Positions 3,424 to 19,130 of a stretch of DNA of 25,266 nucleotides are shown in pieces. The DNA lies in IMG/VR virus record IMGVR_UViG_3300021376_000318, positions 1 to 25,266 of that record. The stretch is one strand, 5' to 3'. Numbering within the stretch: position 1 is the first letter of the stretch; every line of letters begins with the position of its first letter. The DNA is from a virus. The notes beneath the pieces are model-generated. The model was not told where the DNA came from, ran no database searches, and worked only from the letters and a program-made list of their open reading frames with translations. The position numbers and the translations under genes are program-made.

Positions 3424-4653
3424 ATGAACATTCAAATTGTAACCTACTCGGAGAAAGCCATCAAAATATATGGCGACACCAAACCCCTAAAAGAACAGCT
3501 GAAAAGCCTAGGGGCAAAGTATAACCCCTATCTTAAGGGCGGCCCAGGCTGGATCGCCTCAAAGACAAAGGAAGTGGAGATACGCGCTGTAATTAGTAAC
3601 CCTCAGCCCGTTACCTTGGCAAACGTGGAAGTTGTTTCGGCGCCCATCTATGCGCCACCAACACCACAGGAACCAGCGCCACCTATCCCAGCGCCACCAG
3701 CGCCACCCAAACCAGCGCCCAAACCCTCAACCATAACGGCAAAGGAATTGCTCAGGGTATTGCCGGCGAATAAATCAGTGCCTTACATCTGGTTTAACCA
3801 GGGCAATATGCACTACCTTAGTAATCGCGGCTCGGTTGTCCTGCAAGGCACAAACCTGCCAGACTGTGCCCTCGATGCAAGCTACATAAAAGCAAACGGC
3901 CTGCCGGTTAGTATTGACTCAGGCTTCGCCACCTTTACCAATGGGATAAAAGCCAAGACCTCAGATAATGATAACGTGCCAACACCCCTAGAGGCTGATG
4001 AGCTTATCTTATCAGTGCCTCAGACAGATTGCTCAGGGATTATTCCTTACCTAGGGAAAGATGAGCGAAGGGAAGCTATGACAGGCGTTTATTTTGATGG
4101 GGAGAATATGGTAGGGACAGATGCCCATAGGCTTAGAGTCATTTCGGCGCCCTCGGAAGGCTCGGCAATACTATGCAAAGAGGTTGCCACCCTACTCAAA
4201 TACTCTGGGGCTAAAGCCTACAAGAACGGCAGGGTTGAACTTGATGGCGTGGTAATTGACAAAGGGGTAATTGATGCCAGATACCCAGACTATAAATGTG
4301 TAATCCCCAAAATAGAGGGCATGGCCAACACAATTTTTGTGCAGGATAAAAAGACCTTCATTGGCTTTGCAGAGACCGCCGCAAAGATTAACACCTCAAC
4401 CAGGGCTGTTAAGCTAACCCTCAAAGATGGCAACCTAAATATCTATGCCTCAGATATTGACACAGGGGCAGAGGTCAGCTTTGATATGCCTGCCTCTGGA
4501 AATGATTGCTATGTGGCGTACAATGGCAGACTATTAGCCGAGTGCCTTAAAAGCATTGAAGGCAGCTCCTTTAGCCTGCACTTTGAAAACGCAAACAGGC
4601 CATCACTTATCAATGATGAGACTGTGCTTATCATGCCTGTAATGATTGATTAA
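3424..4653 (+). CDS. DNA polymerase III beta-like sliding clamp with an N-terminal extra module
   Basis: The 409-residue protein has three parts. Residues 1-58 form a small module containing KSLGAKYNPYLKGGPGWIAS, a pattern I associate with short DNA-linked modules in phage proteins. Residues 72-102 are a Pro/Ala-rich flexible linker. From about 105 the sequence is DnaN-like: MTGVYFDGENMVGTDAHRLR (220-239) matches the domain II signature, DARYPDYKCVIP the interdomain segment, and YNGRLLAECLK with the C-terminal VLIMPVMID match domain III. The clamp part, about 305 residues, is shorter than the usual 365 or so, so domain I may be reduced. It should form a ring on DNA that tethers replication or repair proteins. 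A second, divergent clamp-like gene lies at 15930-16979. Confidence 0.87.
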   Translation: MNIQIVTYSEKAIKIYGDTKPLKEQLKSLGAKYNPYLKGGPGWIASKTKEVEIRAVISNPQPVTLANVEVVSAPIYAPPTPQEPAPPIPAPPAPPKPAPKPSTITAKELLRVLPANKSVPYIWFNQGNMHYLSNRGSVVLQGTNLPDCALDASYIKANGLPVSIDSGFATFTNGIKAKTSDNDNVPTPLEADELILSVPQTDCSGIIPYLGKDERREAMTGVYFDGENMVGTDAHRLRVISAPSEGSAILCKEVATLLKYSGAKAYKNGRVELDGVVIDKGVIDARYPDYKCVIPKIEGMANTIFVQDKKTFIGFAETAAKINTSTRAVKLTLKDGNLNIYASDIDTGAEVSFDMPASGNDCYVAYNGRLLAECLKSIEGSSFSLHFENANRPSLINDETVLIMPVMID

Positions 4654-10652: not shown

Positions 10653-11693
10653 ATGCTAACAAACAAACACAACCTCCCAGAGGTAATATGCAAGGCCGCC
10701 CAGTGCCAGACGTACATAAACAAGGGCGACATAAGCGTTACCAGTCTTATTGACAGCCCAAAGATTAGGCTCTTCAAGAAGCAATACAGCACTAAAGTAC
10801 ATAAAGATGTGTCAGATATGCTCCCAGCTATTGAGGGCACAGCGCTACACTATGTACTTGAAATGGCTGATGTGTATAACGCCGAAGCCAGAACCTTGCA
10901 CCGAGCCATAGACGTAATGGAAAAGCTCGTTAACCAGTTTAACAACCCTGCTCAAATGAAATTCCACCACAAAGCCAAACAGCTAAGAGATGGAATGCAA
11001 GAGGTACTTGCTGCCGGTTACAAGCATTACCGTAAGTATGTTATCACTGAGGAGATAATGCAAGTTGAAGTGTTGGGCTGGCACCTAAAGGGGCAGTTTG
11101 ACAGGGTGGAACTTGATAAGAAGAAGCTCATTGACTTTAAGAAGGTGTCGGTATGGTCATATGCCAACAAGTACGAATCAAAGCAGCACAACCTTCAACA
11201 AAACATTTACCGGTGGATGATCAAGAAGGAGTTAGACATAGACATTGCCCAATCGGTACTTGTAAAGTGGTTTAGGGATTGGCAGAAAACTAAGGCTCAG
11301 TCCACTCCTTCCTCTGTGTACCCTCCCCAAAGGGTAATGGAAATTGAAGTGCCTTTAATGGGCTTTAAGGAAGTTGAGGAGTATGTTACCGAAAGGATAG
11401 CCTTGCACCAAAGGGTAGAGCTTGAGGGCTTGGATTCGTACCAATGCACCCCTGAGGAGAAGTGGCAGAGTGCAAGTTCCTGGAAGGTGTATAATGCCAA
11501 CCCAGAGAAGCAGAAGAGGGCGTTAGTGAGTGAGTTTTATCGTGAGAAAGATGCGTTGAAGTGGGTGTTAGGCAATGAGCATAAGTACCCAGAGGGCGTG
11601 ATAGTAAAGAAGCTAGAGGGGGAGAACAAACGCTGTAAGGAGTATTGCGAGTTTAGAGATTTTTGTAACCAATATAAATTAGAAAACCAATGA
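10653..11693 (+). CDS. PD-(D/E)XK nuclease, RecB/AddB/Cas4-like
   Basis: This 346-residue protein has GTALHYVLE (62-70) with the RecB-family His, GQFDRV with Asp150, IDFKKV with Asp161 and Lys163, and QHNLQQNIY (178-186), matching the ordered motifs of RecB-like nucleases. At the C-terminus Cys328, Cys332 and Cys338 (CKEYCEFRDFC), with Cys13 or Cys18 near the N-terminus, could bind an iron-sulfur cluster as in AddB and Cas4. It probably acts as a DNA exonuclease in recombination or host DNA breakdown, with the ATPase and SNF2 helicase downstream as possible partners (inference). Confidence 0.88.
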   Translation: MLTNKHNLPEVICKAAQCQTYINKGDISVTSLIDSPKIRLFKKQYSTKVHKDVSDMLPAIEGTALHYVLEMADVYNAEARTLHRAIDVMEKLVNQFNNPAQMKFHHKAKQLRDGMQEVLAAGYKHYRKYVITEEIMQVEVLGWHLKGQFDRVELDKKKLIDFKKVSVWSYANKYESKQHNLQQNIYRWMIKKELDIDIAQSVLVKWFRDWQKTKAQSTPSSVYPPQRVMEIEVPLMGFKEVEEYVTERIALHQRVELEGLDSYQCTPEEKWQSASSWKVYNANPEKQKRALVSEFYREKDALKWVLGNEHKYPEGVIVKKLEGENKRCKEYCEFRDFCNQYKLENQ

Positions 11694-13915: not shown

Positions 13916-14344
13916 ATGAGAGTTCATATCCTAACCAGCCAAGAGTTTACAGATGTGTATAAGTACAGCACTGAGGTAACAATTCACTTTGACGATGACA
14001 ACACCTTTCTTTTTCTCAAAGGGGCACAGACCGCCACCATTATCTTTGAGAATGGCTACCTTCAAGTTGATGGCTATGGCACTTACCGTTTTGATGGTGA
14101 GGTATGCCTAGACCACGAAGGTGATGGTGTTCACCTTATTGCCACCGGAACACATTTAGTTTTTATCAAGGAGGATAAGTGGTCGTTTACCTCTTCCAGT
14201 GAAACCTATGAGCTTATGTTTTCGGCGCTTAGAAGCGCTGCGGAAATGATTGAAGAAAACAACTGGAAGATTGAAGAACTGCCGACACGCCTAAAGCCAG
14301 TGTTTAACGCTTACAAGACATTAGACACGTTTTTTAACCAATGA
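13916..14344 (+). CDS. Hypothetical protein, 142 aa
   Basis: A beta-rich N-terminal part (VHILTSQEFTDVYKYSTEVT) is followed by a C-terminal helical part with EETYELMFSALRS-like features (residues about 100-135). No recognisable family. I take the ATG rather than a TTG three codons earlier. The stop overlaps the SNF2 helicase start. Confidence 0.63.
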   Translation: MRVHILTSQEFTDVYKYSTEVTIHFDDDNTFLFLKGAQTATIIFENGYLQVDGYGTYRFDGEVCLDHEGDGVHLIATGTHLVFIKEDKWSFTSSSETYELMFSALRSAAEMIEENNWKIEELPTRLKPVFNAYKTLDTFFNQ

Positions 14345-15933
14345 TGCACTTAAAGGAGAATGGAAACCTATATCTAGAGTATAGGGAGGGGGAGTATTAT
14401 GCAGAGCTGTATGGCATGACTAAGGTTGTGGTGGGAGGGAAAGCCTATTGGAAGGGAAACCTTTCGGCGCTCCGCAAAGAGGCGGTGAAAAATCTCCTTG
14501 AAGATCGTGGCATAGATTGGAAGTCCCCCCAAGGGACCATAATCGCCGAAAAGCTAAAAAGTATGTACGCTAAACTGTACAAAATGTTTGATGCCAAGGT
14601 ACACTCCCTATTCCCCCTCAACGGCAGGAAACTACGCCACCACCAAATAGACACCCTAATGTTTGCCTGCACCAACAAGCACACCCTAGCGGCCCTAGAC
14701 CAAGGCACAGGCAAAACCATTACCACCATCATGAAGTCTAAGTACAGAAACCTCTACCCAACCTTAATAGTTTGTGAGGCTAGTGCCAAAGACAACTGGG
14801 TAACATCTCTCAGCGAACAATGGGGTTTTAATTCCTTTGAGTTTACGGTAGTGTACTCCCAGCGCCGGCACTTTATCCAAGCCTTAAATGAAAAGTTTAT
14901 CATCATCAACTATGACTTATTGCATAGGAGTGTTGACTACCTTAGAAGCAAGGGCATAAAGCACATTATCCTAGACGAGTGCCAACGTATTAAGAGTACC
15001 AAAACCCAAAGGTTTAAGGCGGTGAAGGCTATCCTTAAAGGCTCTGATGCTCATATTACCTTTGCCTCTGGTACACCTAACACAAATAGGGCAGATGATT
15101 TCTTTGCGTACCTTAAACTTTCCGGCCACCCTTTAGGCTCTAACAAGTTAAAGTTTGACCTAAAGTTCCTAGAGAAAGATGGCTTTAAGGTTAAAGGGGC
15201 GAAGAATATCCCCCAGCTAAGAAAGGAAATGGCAAACTTTATGGTAAGGTATAGGCTGGAGGATTGCTGGGATATGCCTAAGAAAAACTATGTGCTTTAT
15301 AGCGTGAAGGGTGATGGCCAATGGCTAGAACAGTATGAGGCTGAGATTAAAAGAATTTGCGACGAAGAGGTTAGGACCAGGCAACAGCTTGAAAACAATA
15401 TCCATTCCCTTAATCGCATTATTTCCCTAGCCAAAGTGCCAATCATTAAGGAAACTATTGACAATATTATTGAGGCGGGGAAGAAAGCTGTGGTGTTTGG
15501 TAGTTATACTGCCCCTTTGCAAGAGGTGTATAGGTTATACCCTTCGGCGGCCTACATTGATGGGAGCGTTTCAACAGAAAAGCGTGGCGACATTATTAGA
15601 AGGTTTACAGGAGATAATAGGTGTAAAGTATTCATTGGCAATATGAGGGCAGCAGGGACTTCTATTGAGCTTCAAAACGCCTCCGATGTACTCTTCTTGA
15701 ATTGGGCGTTTATACCTACCGACTTCGCCCAAGCAGTCAGTAGGGTGTATCGTGCCGGCCAGACCAAGCCAGTGAACATCTATACCATACTTGTAAAAGA
15801 TACTATTGATGAGCATATTTGGAACTTAATGGGAAACAAAATGGAAGACATTGATAAAATTATTGATGGAAAGCCATATAATATGAAAAAGGAAAATATC
15901 TTTGAGGAAATATACAATTACATAAAAAAATGA
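14341..15933 (+). CDS. SNF2-family (SF2) DNA helicase/translocase, 530 aa
   Basis: Motifs in order: LRHHQIDTLMFAC (Q-like, about 98-110), DQGTGKT (Walker A/motif I, 120-126), DECQ (motif II, 212-215, where most family members have DEAH or DESH), SGTP (motif III, 243-246) and QAVSRVYRAGQTKPV (motif VI, 464-478) with two arginine fingers. This is the complete two-lobed SNF2 core of a small phage translocase with a short N-terminal extension and no extra binding domain. It would move along duplex DNA using ATP, remodelling replication or recombination intermediates. It is coupled to the second clamp gene by ATGA. Confidence 0.92.
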   Translation: MMHLKENGNLYLEYREGEYYAELYGMTKVVVGGKAYWKGNLSALRKEAVKNLLEDRGIDWKSPQGTIIAEKLKSMYAKLYKMFDAKVHSLFPLNGRKLRHHQIDTLMFACTNKHTLAALDQGTGKTITTIMKSKYRNLYPTLIVCEASAKDNWVTSLSEQWGFNSFEFTVVYSQRRHFIQALNEKFIIINYDLLHRSVDYLRSKGIKHIILDECQRIKSTKTQRFKAVKAILKGSDAHITFASGTPNTNRADDFFAYLKLSGHPLGSNKLKFDLKFLEKDGFKVKGAKNIPQLRKEMANFMVRYRLEDCWDMPKKNYVLYSVKGDGQWLEQYEAEIKRICDEEVRTRQQLENNIHSLNRIISLAKVPIIKETIDNIIEAGKKAVVFGSYTAPLQEVYRLYPSAAYIDGSVSTEKRGDIIRRFTGDNRCKVFIGNMRAAGTSIELQNASDVLFLNWAFIPTDFAQAVSRVYRAGQTKPVNIYTILVKDTIDEHIWNLMGNKMEDIDKIIDGKPYNMKKENIFEEIYNYIKK

Positions 15934-16979
15934 AAGTAACCCGAACACAACTGAAAAACGCCTTGGCAGCCTTGGCACCAGTAGCAAAAGCAAAAAGCAC
16001 CGCCCCAGCAACTTCTTGGCTGAGGGTAACAGACAGGACAATATCTTGTGCTGGTTTAGATGCTGCCATAATGATTAACATTGAGGCTATCCCCGACACC
16101 ATTCCCAACGACTTTTATGTTTCATACTATGACCTTGAAACAATCGCAAATAAGGGAAACGCCGAAGAGATAGACCTTACCGCTTCCGATGTGCTATACT
16201 TCAAAAGCGGTAGAGGTAAAGGCCAAGTGCCCCTCCAAGATGGTTCTTCGGCTCTATCCTTTGACTATACCTTGGCAGAGCCTTTATTCTCCGAGCCAGT
16301 TAAAGACCTTATTTCGCACCTTTCATTAGCTGGCAGGTTTGCAGGTAACGATGACCTCCGGCCACAAATGTGCCAGGTAAACCTTCAAACACGAAGGGAT
16401 AAGGTGTATTGCTACGCCACCAACGCGTATAGTGTTTACCTTGCAGTTATCAAAGATATTGATAGGGTGGAGGAAAACGATGGCAAGATTGTAAGCATTA
16501 CCCCAAGGTACATTCCGGTAGTTGCGAGTATGCAAGGCATGGTGAATGTTGGTGCCTCTGAGAAATGGCAGCAGTTTAGCGATGGCATTACTTCTTTGTT
16601 TGTGCGTACTGCCGACAACCCAATGAAATTAGAGGTTATTGAGAGTGTGATTATCAAAGAGTACCCAATACTTTGTGAGGTTTCTTTACCTGAGTTTTTG
16701 GGCGCTGTGGAAAGGTGTATATCTTTCAGCCCGAAAGCCACTTCCCTTGTTAGGATTGGTAAGGGTAAAGTGTCCTCGGAGGATATTGACTTTGGCAAGA
16801 ACTATGAGGAAGAGTTTGATGGCTTGCTGGAAGAGAATGTTGTGGGGTTGAATGGTAAACAGTTGCTTCAAGCTGTGGGAATGATTGGCGAGGCTACTAT
16901 TGGCTTCCAAGCAGATAACCGAGTGGTAGGAATTATTAAGGGAGATGTTGCCTTGTACTTTATGCCGGTGATGATATGA
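15930..16979 (+). CDS. Divergent DnaN-like sliding clamp, 349 aa
   Basis: The protein begins MKVTRTQLKNALAALAPVAK, like domain I of beta clamps, has a middle segment FAGNDDLRPQMCQVNL followed by CYATNAYSVYLAV (the domain II TDxxRLA region, with Asn-Ala-Tyr), and ends GDVALYFMPVMI, matching the domain III C-terminus. The length is close to that of full clamps (about 365). It differs greatly from the clamp at 3424-4653 and lacks that gene's N-terminal module and linker. It lies between a helicase and a primase, so it is probably the clamp for replication itself (inference). Confidence 0.75.
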   Translation: MKVTRTQLKNALAALAPVAKAKSTAPATSWLRVTDRTISCAGLDAAIMINIEAIPDTIPNDFYVSYYDLETIANKGNAEEIDLTASDVLYFKSGRGKGQVPLQDGSSALSFDYTLAEPLFSEPVKDLISHLSLAGRFAGNDDLRPQMCQVNLQTRRDKVYCYATNAYSVYLAVIKDIDRVEENDGKIVSITPRYIPVVASMQGMVNVGASEKWQQFSDGITSLFVRTADNPMKLEVIESVIIKEYPILCEVSLPEFLGAVERCISFSPKATSLVRIGKGKVSSEDIDFGKNYEEEFDGLLEENVVGLNGKQLLQAVGMIGEATIGFQADNRVVGIIKGDVALYFMPVMI

Positions 16980-17821
16980 TTTGCACCGTCCTCCAAGACA
17001 ATTACCAGTTAGAGGGAAAGCCTGTGCATATCAAGGCTATCATAGGGCACATTAAAAGTGATGCTATGAGGGATAGGATTGGTGCAATTAGGAAGATGAA
17101 AAAGGAAGAGGCTGATGCTGCCAAGATGATGCTTCCTGCCTTTTTCCCCTCTGGGGTGTTTTCTGGGGGGAAGAAGGCCACCGACTTAGTTAAACATTCA
17201 GGAATTATACACTTAGACATTGATGGAAAACAACGCGCCGAAAGGGTACTATCCCACCTTGACACAACATACGTTTTATTTCTTTTCCGCTCCCCAAGGG
17301 GAGGAGTTAAGATTGGCTTTAAGACAGCTATCCCAAAGGACAATCACCATCACAAGTGGGCATGGGAGTGTATTGATAGAGAGTTTGCCTTCGGCCTTTC
17401 CGACAAAGCCGGAAAGCCTGTAAACAAACAGTGTAACTTGTCCTACGATCCGGAAGCATACCTAAACCTTGAAGCTCCTACCTACACGCCACCCATTATG
17501 CCAGAGGAAAAACCTATCTACTTTAACCCTATGGAGGTAAGGGGTATAGATGATGCGTTAAGGATAGCTGAAAAGGGAGTGCAGAATACAGGCATAACCT
17601 TTCGGCCCGGCCAGCGAAACCTATACGTTTTTAAGATATGCTGTATCCTAAATAGAATGGGCATAGAAATGAACGTGGCAGATAGGTTACTTGCTGGCAG
17701 GTTTGAAGGTAGAAAGTTTGATGGCAAAGAAATAAATGTTACTTTGCGTGGTGTTTATGAAAGGTACGCTAATGAGTTTGCCTCTCGGCCAATTAAATCT
17801 AAAAATAACGGATTGCTATGA
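16976..17821 (+). CDS. Primase-polymerase, BT4734-like / VirE_N (archaeo-eukaryotic primase fold), 281 aa
   Basis: The core contains HLDIDG (79-84) with the paired catalytic Asp residues, SPRGGVKIGF (106-115) and CNLSYDPEAYLN (153-164), the known motif order of the BT4734-like/VirE N-terminal domain. The C-terminal part, about 200-275, is helical (RNLYVFKICCILNRMGIEMN, then VYERYANEF), like a small PriCT-type domain. No fused helicase is present, unlike many larger members. It should lay primers at the phage origin, and in some relatives such enzymes also extend DNA. It is coupled to the second clamp (before) and a zinc-ribbon microprotein (after). Confidence 0.83.
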   Translation: MICTVLQDNYQLEGKPVHIKAIIGHIKSDAMRDRIGAIRKMKKEEADAAKMMLPAFFPSGVFSGGKKATDLVKHSGIIHLDIDGKQRAERVLSHLDTTYVLFLFRSPRGGVKIGFKTAIPKDNHHHKWAWECIDREFAFGLSDKAGKPVNKQCNLSYDPEAYLNLEAPTYTPPIMPEEKPIYFNPMEVRGIDDALRIAEKGVQNTGITFRPGQRNLYVFKICCILNRMGIEMNVADRLLAGRFEGRKFDGKEINVTLRGVYERYANEFASRPIKSKNNGLL

Positions 17822-17934
17822 ACCACTGCCCAATATGCTCTGGGGCGTTAATCAAGCCCGAAAGATGCCCAGACAAGGTGTATCAATGCAAAGAATGTAA
17901 AGCTAAACTTTTTATACTTGTTGTGAAGAAATGA
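17818..17934 (+). CDS. Zinc-ribbon microprotein, 38 aa
   Basis: Encodes MNHCPICSGALIKPERCPDK followed by VYQCKECKAKLFILVVKK. Two CxxC knuckles (CPIC and CKEC) spaced by about 20 residues form a classic zinc ribbon. The start overlaps the primase stop and its stop overlaps the methyltransferase start as ATGA. It may bind nucleic acid or serve as an accessory subunit for either neighbour (inference). Confidence 0.7.
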   Translation: MNHCPICSGALIKPERCPDKVYQCKECKAKLFILVVKK

Positions 17935-19130
17935 AACTGATAAGCCTTTTTAGTGGGATTGGTGGCTTTGAGCTTGCAGCAGAATGGGCTGGCTGGCAGA
18001 ATGTGGTTTCTTGCGAGATTAACCCTTTTGGCAGACAAGTTCTTAACCACTACTGGCCAAACGCCTACCACCACGATGATATTAAAACACTAACTTTTGA
18101 AAAGATAGATTATGAACTCACACAAAGATTTGGGGCAAACTGGAACGCAGATGACATTATTCTCACAGGTGGATTTCCTTGCCAGCCATACTCAGCCGCC
18201 GGGAAGCGACTTGGAAAAGAAGATGAACGCCACCTGTGGCCCGAAATGCGTCGACTCATTCGGGAGGTTCAACCGAAATGGGTTGTGGGCGAAAATGTTC
18301 TCGGCCTTGTTAATTGGAATGACGGGTTGGTCTTCGAGGAGGTGCAAGCTGACTTGGAAAGTGAAGGGTACGAAGTACAACCGTATGTACTTCCAGCTGC
18401 GGGGGTCAACGCCCCCCACAAACGAGATAGAGTTTGGTTTGTTGCCTACCGAACTACTCCCCACCCCGGAAAGTTACGACTGGAACTCAGCCCGACACCC
18501 CGAACTTTGGGAGAAGGACAAGAAGAAATATGCCGAGAAGGGAATAAACCTTCATTGCAACCTACGGCAAATGGCAAGGTTGAGCCTGCTACCGACACCC
18601 ATATCCTCCGAAATACATCATGCGGAGAGGGTAAAGAAACTCAAGGAATCGGGTGCGGAAACAATGGCGAGCAGAAAACTGGGTGCCAGCAGACCGAACG
18701 GCTTGATGGACTTCTTGGACTTCAACCAAATGCTACCGACACCACAAGCATCGGATTTTGTCACCACAGTGAGGGACAACGATTATTCCCTAAGACACTT
18801 GGAGCATCAATCGGGATGGGTCAACAAAATACTCCCCACCCCAGTTTCAGGCGAGTGGAGGGATACCAGGGACAAAGTAAAAGGCAATACTTACAAGCAG
18901 CAAAATCTTACAAGGACAATAGCGAACAATTCCCAAGAATGGGGTGGGAGCAATTCCCAACTCAACCCCCTATTCGTAGCCGAAATGATGGGATTTCCCC
19001 CCAACTGGTTGGAATTACCGTTTCAAAACACCGAAACGAATCCATAAAAGCCTACGGAAACGCCATCGTGCCACAAGTCGTTTACCAAATTTTTAAGGCA
19101 ATAAACGAGTACCAAACTAAAACAACGTAA
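17931..19130 (+). CDS. DNA (cytosine-5) methyltransferase, 399 aa
   Basis: All key motifs are visible: motif I FSGIGGFELA (7-16), motif IV GGFPCQPYSAAGKR with catalytic Cys84, motif VI ENV (121-123), motif VIII HKRDRVWFVA (163-172) and motif X KAYGNAIVPQVVYQIF ahead of the C-terminus. The stretch between motif VIII and the C-terminal block (about 173-335) is polar, low in hydrophobics and Gly/Gln/Thr-rich, an odd makeup for a target-recognition region. A second 311-codon frame runs through most of the gene. It probably methylates phage DNA to evade host restriction. The target sequence cannot be read from the protein. Confidence 0.93.
   Translation: MKLISLFSGIGGFELAAEWAGWQNVVSCEINPFGRQVLNHYWPNAYHHDDIKTLTFEKIDYELTQRFGANWNADDIILTGGFPCQPYSAAGKRLGKEDERHLWPEMRRLIREVQPKWVVGENVLGLVNWNDGLVFEEVQADLESEGYEVQPYVLPAAGVNAPHKRDRVWFVAYRTTPHPGKLRLELSPTPRTLGEGQEEICREGNKPSLQPTANGKVEPATDTHILRNTSCGEGKETQGIGCGNNGEQKTGCQQTERLDGLLGLQPNATDTTSIGFCHHSEGQRLFPKTLGASIGMGQQNTPHPSFRRVEGYQGQSKRQYLQAAKSYKDNSEQFPRMGWEQFPTQPPIRSRNDGISPQLVGITVSKHRNESIKAYGNAIVPQVVYQIFKAINEYQTKTT
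18112..19047 (+). CDS. Overprinted 311-aa ORF inside the methyltransferase gene (+1 frame)
   Basis: This frame is open for 311 codons wholly within the methyltransferase gene. It carries four LPTP motifs: LLPTPESYDW (115-), LLPTPISSEI (159-), MLPTPQASDF (207-) and ILPTPVSGEW (240-), a CKLTWKVKGTKYNRMYFQL segment (78-96), and a C-terminal LNPLFVAEMMGFPPNW (284-299). I recall proteins with the same LPTP and MGFPxxW layout in phage genomes, sometimes labelled as methyltransferases, but cannot verify this here. It may be an independent protein, or reach the ribosome by frameshifting from the enzyme's N-terminal half. The ATG at 18112 and one at 18151 are candidate starts; neither has a Shine-Dalgarno sequence. 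Confidence 0.6.
   Translation: MNSHKDLGQTGTQMTLFSQVDFLASHTQPPGSDLEKKMNATCGPKCVDSFGRFNRNGLWAKMFSALLIGMTGWSSRRCKLTWKVKGTKYNRMYFQLRGSTPPTNEIEFGLLPTELLPTPESYDWNSARHPELWEKDKKKYAEKGINLHCNLRQMARLSLLPTPISSEIHHAERVKKLKESGAETMASRKLGASRPNGLMDFLDFNQMLPTPQASDFVTTVRDNDYSLRHLEHQSGWVNKILPTPVSGEWRDTRDKVKGNTYKQQNLTRTIANNSQEWGGSNSQLNPLFVAEMMGFPPNWLELPFQNTETNP

Follow-up and report, generated by a model that had tools for sequence, protein, structure and literature searches.

What does a second long reading frame, lying entirely within a complete DNA methyltransferase gene of a phage, encode? The question is raised by the window, the whole 25,266-nucleotide stretch of virus DNA analysed here (IMG/VR virus record IMGVR_UViG_3300021376_000318). 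A preliminary description had pointed to a 311-codon +1 frame, open throughout, within a complete 399-codon m5C DNA methyltransferase (MTase), and both open reading frames were found in the window. The start of the second frame, ORF2, is offset by 181 nt from that of the MTase, which places it in the +1 frame. The features of the pair are listed below.

17931..19130, + strand: m5C DNA methyltransferase (MTase), alpha-like chain, 399 aa, motifs I-VIII and X
18112..19047, + strand: ORF2, overlapping +1-frame gene, beta-like chain, 311 aa
18148..18162, + strand: QMTLF, candidate beta-sliding-clamp-binding motif, ORF2 residues 13-17, from the motif class count in relatives
18168..18194, + strand: MTase motif IV GGFPCQPYS with the catalytic Cys84, from the sequence
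18343..18399, + strand: conserved N-terminal core of ORF2, CKLTWKVKGTKYNRMYFQL, conserved columns in alignments A1 and A3
18457..18468, + strand: LPTP module 1, ORF2 residue 116, from the sequence
18589..18600, + strand: LPTP module 2, ORF2 residue 160, from the sequence
18733..18744, + strand: LPTP module 3, ORF2 residue 208, from the sequence
18832..18843, + strand: LPTP module 4, ORF2 residue 241, from the sequence
18955..19008, + strand: motif-IX-like block SQLNPLFVAEMMGFPPNW, ORF2 residues 282-299, from alignment A1 and hhalign
19056..19076, + strand: MTase motif X GNAIVPQ, from the sequence

The MTase matches the Pfam family DNA_methylase (1.4e-41) and PHROG_363 (2.5e-71). The Pfam match is confined to residues 1-177, in agreement with the earlier remark that the MTase sequence is bland from motif VIII to about residue 335. 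Inspection of the sequence identified motif I, motif IV with Cys84, ENV, the motif VIII region and GNAIVPQ; the last four had been claimed in the preliminary description, and all are present.

ORF2 behaves as a real protein-coding gene that lies wholly within the MTase, and in a large family of phages purifying selection acts on both frames. An IMG/VR scan with ORF2 identified 569 stretches that encode relatives, and the best 80 of the 569 were taken for locus analysis. The ORF2 frame is the +1 phase of an MTase in all 80 loci. Frequent stops in this frame, which the preliminary description had named as evidence against a second gene, were not found: ORF2 is interrupted by a stop in only one of the 80 loci (L074), and the MTase frame is broken in a few. 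A second scan was blind to ORF2, the query being the DNA of MTase motif IV alone, and gave at least 117 phage MTase sites; among the matches listed, ORF2 is present in 109 of 117 phage MTases. The two-frame substitution comparison proposed earlier was run on 48 homologue pairs, and every change in the overlap, whether possible or observed, was assigned to a class according to what it does to each of the two proteins. Changes per site were 0.18 where both proteins are altered (NN), 0.25 where only the MTase is altered (NS), 0.29 where only ORF2 is altered (SN) and 0.76 where both are unaffected (SS). MTase-silent changes that alter ORF2 are held back (SN/SS 0.38, 95% interval 0.33-0.44), as are ORF2-silent changes that alter the MTase (NS/SS 0.32, 95% interval 0.29-0.37); the absolute values of these ratios are approximate, given multiple hits and a fixed transition weight, and the contrast is large. 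Taken separately, the part spanning motifs IV-VIII, the variable part and the C-terminal part each give values under 1 for the two ratios, intervals included. Two frames that are both open and conserved, each under purifying selection, are the marks of an overlapping gene pair. The constant phase, the single broken ORF2 and the dual selection strongly support the earlier proposal of an overlapping gene with a protein product of its own. In dsDNA phages it is unusual for a long same-strand overlap to have both products under strong selection. The present overlap is near-universal within a phage enzyme class that is itself common, and the hidden protein is labelled a methyltransferase in databases.

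That label probably derives from the overlapping frame. A comparison of the 311-aa product with phage proteins, suggested in the preliminary description, gave a match to PHROG_1008 (1.2e-28), which is also matched by 115 of 115 family members scanned. PHROG_1008 is named "DNA methyltransferase", a name probably inherited from the MTase frame, and ORF2 contains none of the catalytic MTase motifs. Searches of Pfam and NCBIfam gave no match to ORF2, the HNH domain likewise being absent, and hmmsearch with an ORF2 profile gave no match among PDB sequences. AlphaFold2 models of ORF2 alone were of low confidence with 62 and with 115 sequences (pLDDT 59, pTM 0.27 for the latter), and Foldseek found no fold match for the model in the PDB. 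Predicted strands at residues 79-86 and 92-99, in the N-terminal core, are among the most confident parts of the model. Poor folding of ORF2 alone would fit an obligate partner, yet it is not evidence for one.

Insights into the function of ORF2 come from its C-terminus, the most conserved part of the protein, where the LNPLFVAEMMGFPPNW sequence noted earlier is present. Ser282, Leu284, Pro286, Phe288, Val289, Met292, Met293, Gly294, Phe295 and Trp299 are invariant in 62 sequences, and 11 of the 13 invariant columns of alignment A1 fall inside the motif-IX-like block or at its ends. The block, LNPxFVxEMMGFPxxW, has the same spacing as m5C motif IX (LTPxExxRLQGFPxxW). The resemblance of the MGFPPNW end to the RLQGFP region had been noticed before, and profile-profile comparison with hhalign against seven MTase ORFs from bacterial genomes places the block on motif IX: the best ORF2 alignment puts residues 283-301 on the canonical motif (P 0.0025), with a probability of 12% that is low because the match is short. 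The MTase profile in the same comparison covers residues 2-178 and weakly 370-393, that is, motifs I-VIII and weakly X. According to this profile, the MTase family lacks a recognisable motif IX, which canonical single-chain enzymes carry within the same chain. A motif-IX-like regular expression matched 148 of 192 ORF2 C-termini versus 2 of 192 MTase frames. As the expression detects the motif in just 7 of 36 bacterial MTase ORFs, its scarcity in the MTase frame carries less weight than it seems to. The Arg and Glu of motif IX (R-x-L-T-x-x-E) are missing from the ORF2 block. With a motif IX PSSM, the same block is the top match in most ORF2s, although with low scores, and only 11% beat 99% of shuffles. 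Because of the missing Arg and Glu, the low PSSM scores and the insensitive expression, "motif-IX-like" is the right wording for the block. One complete phage MTase (L182) carries canonical motif IX (RRLTPLEYERAQAFPDNW) in the MTase frame itself and has no ORF2.

The window MTase has the motif set, I-VIII and X, of the large chain of M.EcoHK31I-type MTases, and ORF2 has the motif-IX-like block. The two chains are most likely one enzyme, as those of M.EcoHK31I are, and judging from the motif layout we consider that ORF2 is probably the second (beta) subunit of a two-polypeptide m5C MTase of this kind. The alpha chain, encoded in the MTase frame, would provide SAM binding, catalysis and motif X, and the beta chain the motif-IX-like block of the small domain. 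Translation of ORF2 would begin at a separate start codon on the shared mRNA, probably the ATG at 18112. If the model is true, activity would be missed when an annotated MTase of this class is expressed by itself.

Lee, Kam and Shaw reportedly found in 1995 that the small chain of M.EcoHK31I, of ~176 aa, is read from another frame within the gene of the large chain. ORF2 is unlike this chain in that it is larger (311 aa), contains LPTP modules and a clamp-type motif, and is widespread in phages; M.EcoHK31I (YGGCCR) is likened to the MTase/ORF2 pair by motif layout. In M.EcoHK31I, motifs I-VIII, motif X and a predicted TRD are in the large subunit and motif IX is in the small subunit (PMC3404938). 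M.AquI, like the enzyme proposed here, is a two-polypeptide m5C MTase with motif IX in the smaller chain (PMC3404938), but in the window pair motif X remains in the MTase frame. Out-of-frame coding inside a phage methylase is also found in ShiLan (PMC11855218), where it is a mobile HNH insertion, whereas ORF2 overlaps the core and the variable region of the enzyme.

The QMTLF sequence near the ORF2 N-terminus suggests a link to the sliding clamp. A clamp-type motif is found at this end of ORF2 in 111 of 192 relatives. With shuffled residues the mean count is 3.1 and the maximum 9, and the other two frames give 0 and 2. Variants include QLTLF, QISLF and QLSLW. The motif occurs at several distances from motif IV and is therefore not simply forced by the MTase frame. 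The clamp-binding consensus is QLxLF (PMC4549789); QMTLF is a variant of this short motif of beta-clamp-binding proteins, with Met at position 2. The window encodes a sliding-clamp-like protein upstream of the MTase, with one gene in between, and this protein is a plausible partner of the ORF2 motif. In the two-subunit model, the enzyme would be held at the clamp by QMTLF and may methylate newly made phage DNA behind the fork, and DNA modification by the phage would be tied to its replication fork. Two sliding-clamp-like genes are encoded by this one phage, and the MTase is surrounded by a phage DNA-metabolism region with the following members.

1806-2591: weak glutamine-amidotransferase-like protein
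3424-4653: first clamp-like gene, PF02768 2.6e-8, PHROG_947 6.8e-24
10653-11693: PD-(D/E)XK exonuclease
14341-15933: SNF2 helicase
15930..16979, + strand: sliding-clamp-like protein, PHROG_947 (DNA polymerase processivity factor) 1.9e-25, residues 1-348
16976-17821: BT4734-like protein

Between its two ends, ORF2 contains the four LPTP motifs reported in the preliminary description, spaced 44, 48 and 33 residues apart as stated there. Relatives have 0-5 LPTPxAxD modules each in this region, with a median spacing of 39 aa, and ORF2 length correlates with module number (r 0.58). In the two-subunit model, these modules, ~39 residues long and variable in number, would probably be part of target recognition. 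That they recognise DNA is a guess based on their size and their place in the variable region of the MTase, and such a role is not favoured by the location of the predicted TRD of M.EcoHK31I in the large subunit (PMC3404938).

Other readings of ORF2 were considered. The open frame could be an untranslated by-product of MTase codon bias. In 20,000 synonymous-codon shuffles of the MTase, the longest +1 open run had a mean of 132 codons and reached at least 312 in 0.04%; a P of 4e-4 for one window is not negligible if many genes are scanned, and the single window is thus suggestive and the comparative evidence decides. This explanation is contradicted by the substitution pattern, with its narrow interval for SN/SS, and by the existence of ORF2 residues that are invariant across 62 aligned sequences, and it is extremely improbable. 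In Paenibacillus phage Shelly, gp56 was annotated by the depositors at the same place as 'g55 internal gene', which also argues against a by-product. The presence of an internal gene was thus already noticed by the Shelly annotators; our literature searches found no paper explaining it. The preliminary description preferred programmed frameshifting, by which the N-terminal part of the MTase would be fused to the C-terminal part of ORF2 in a variant enzyme with a different recognition region. The ORF2 end does resemble the RLQGFP region, and in one relative (L111) the MTase frame ends in a motif-IX-like tail, making such a fusion possible as a genomic change. However, a TAG in the ORF2 frame at 18106-18108 lies two codons ahead of ATG 18112, the fusion product would be without motif X, and relatives retain, upstream of the shared core, a potential ORF2 start codon as well as a clamp-like motif, which points to a separate start for ORF2. 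Frameshift fusion as the main mode was rejected on these grounds and is very unlikely, and the likeness to RLQGFP is better explained by a separate subunit that carries the block.

A more substantial alternative is that the ORF2 protein is real but does other work, such as anti-restriction, MTase regulation or clamp modulation, and only shares DNA with the MTase. ORF2 has no detectable fold or Pfam family, its resemblance to motif IX is weak, clamp binding might serve other purposes, and on a Bacteroides finegoldii plasmid three TGA codons lie in the MTase frame, the ORF2 frame being open. Against this reading, an MTase accompanies ORF2 in every locus examined (80 of 80), and MTases of this kind have no recognisable motif IX in their own frame. 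We regard a separate job as fairly improbable, and the two-subunit enzyme as the better account of ORF2.

Some relatives of the MTase are interrupted at the catalytic site. Four distinct loci among the first 80 have six extra bases, a stop and one codon, exactly between Pro83 and Cys84; the window MTase has no insert at motif IV. A scan for any six-base insertion at the Pro-Cys of GGFP-CQP motifs, with the insert sequence unspecified, identified 53 MTase contigs, all with a stop followed by YYN, and the 13 remaining matches were unrelated DNA. Later scans brought the total to 56 distinct MTases with stop+YYN (loci L002, L035, L044, L052, L082-L134, L149, L150, L325, L330, L335, L353, L354, L356-L358, L362-L364 and L366); 53 of the 56 have ORF2. 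The signature is GGS TTC CCD TRR YYN TGY. The stop is TAA in 29 of the 56 inserts, TGA in 20 and TAG in 7, and the landing codon is CCN, CTN or TCN, never TTN (YYN was required in the later scans but not in the first). The Pro codon before the insert is never CCC, compared with CCC in 66 of 171 MTases without an insert, and the bases upstream are TTC in 44 of 44 and GGS in 41 of 44. Two loci have longer inserts that also end in YYN: nine bases with two stops, TGA TAA CTG, in L336 (about 969-998, + strand), and seven bases, TGAATCA, in L349 (about 7937, + strand), where the frame would be broken unless hopped and a sequencing error is possible. On a quick MTase tree, the insert requires 7-19 changes. 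The third base of the first Gly codon did not pair with that of the Pro codon more often than in shuffles.

Two causes of the insert were rejected. Pseudogene decay would be expected to leave ~7.7 stops per locus in the MTase frame of insert carriers if unconstrained; downstream of the insert the frame is open to motif X in most, and selection ratios are below 1 (NS/SS 0.19 in the catalytic part). A cause driven by ORF2 is excluded by L366, an MTase of another subfamily (CQAFS) with the same signature and no ORF2, which indicates that the stop+YYN element is independent of ORF2.

The signature suggests that the element is a candidate for translational bypassing, in which the ribosome would hop over the stop. 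In this hypothesis, peptidyl-tRNA-Pro would stall at the Pro-stop, hop the stop and re-pair with YYN (anticodon 3'-GGU-5', G-C or G-U pairs), restoring the P-C-Q of motif IV; the mechanism leaves the requirement for GGS TTC unaccounted for. Natural bypassing is scarce, with examples in T4 gene 60 and yeast mitochondria (PMC5009743). The catalytic-site stop in relatives is a directly testable candidate case of programmed translational bypassing. DNA searches of a phage collection found no named cultured phage with the insert, and literature searches found no paper on the ORF2 overlap or the stop+YYN element in phages.

A broader proposal, which we put forward tentatively and hold to be rather doubtful, is that a large class of phage m5C MTases is normally built with this overlap. 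A clamp-tethered modular specificity subunit would be printed over the catalytic gene, gain or loss of LPTP modules would alter both chains simultaneously, and a subset would also carry the conserved stop+YYN at the Pro-Cys of motif IV and need a ribosome hop, which would give phages another bypassing system in addition to that of T4 gene 60.

Several relatives have other irregularities. L018 has a TAA at MTase residue ~345 (3922) and L009 one at residue ~17 (1949); ORF2 is intact in both, and neither stop is of the motif IV type. In L109, L111 and L112, the frames seem swapped toward the 3' end, with motif X in the ORF2 frame in L109 and the motif-IX-like tail in the MTase frame in L111, reflecting either a real indel or a sequencing error. 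On the Bacteroides finegoldii plasmid (L367, NZ_OY725938.1), the three internal TGA codons of the MTase frame are at 1404, 1977 and 2475, and two of them are at conserved Trp positions, indicating either decay or TGA read as Trp.
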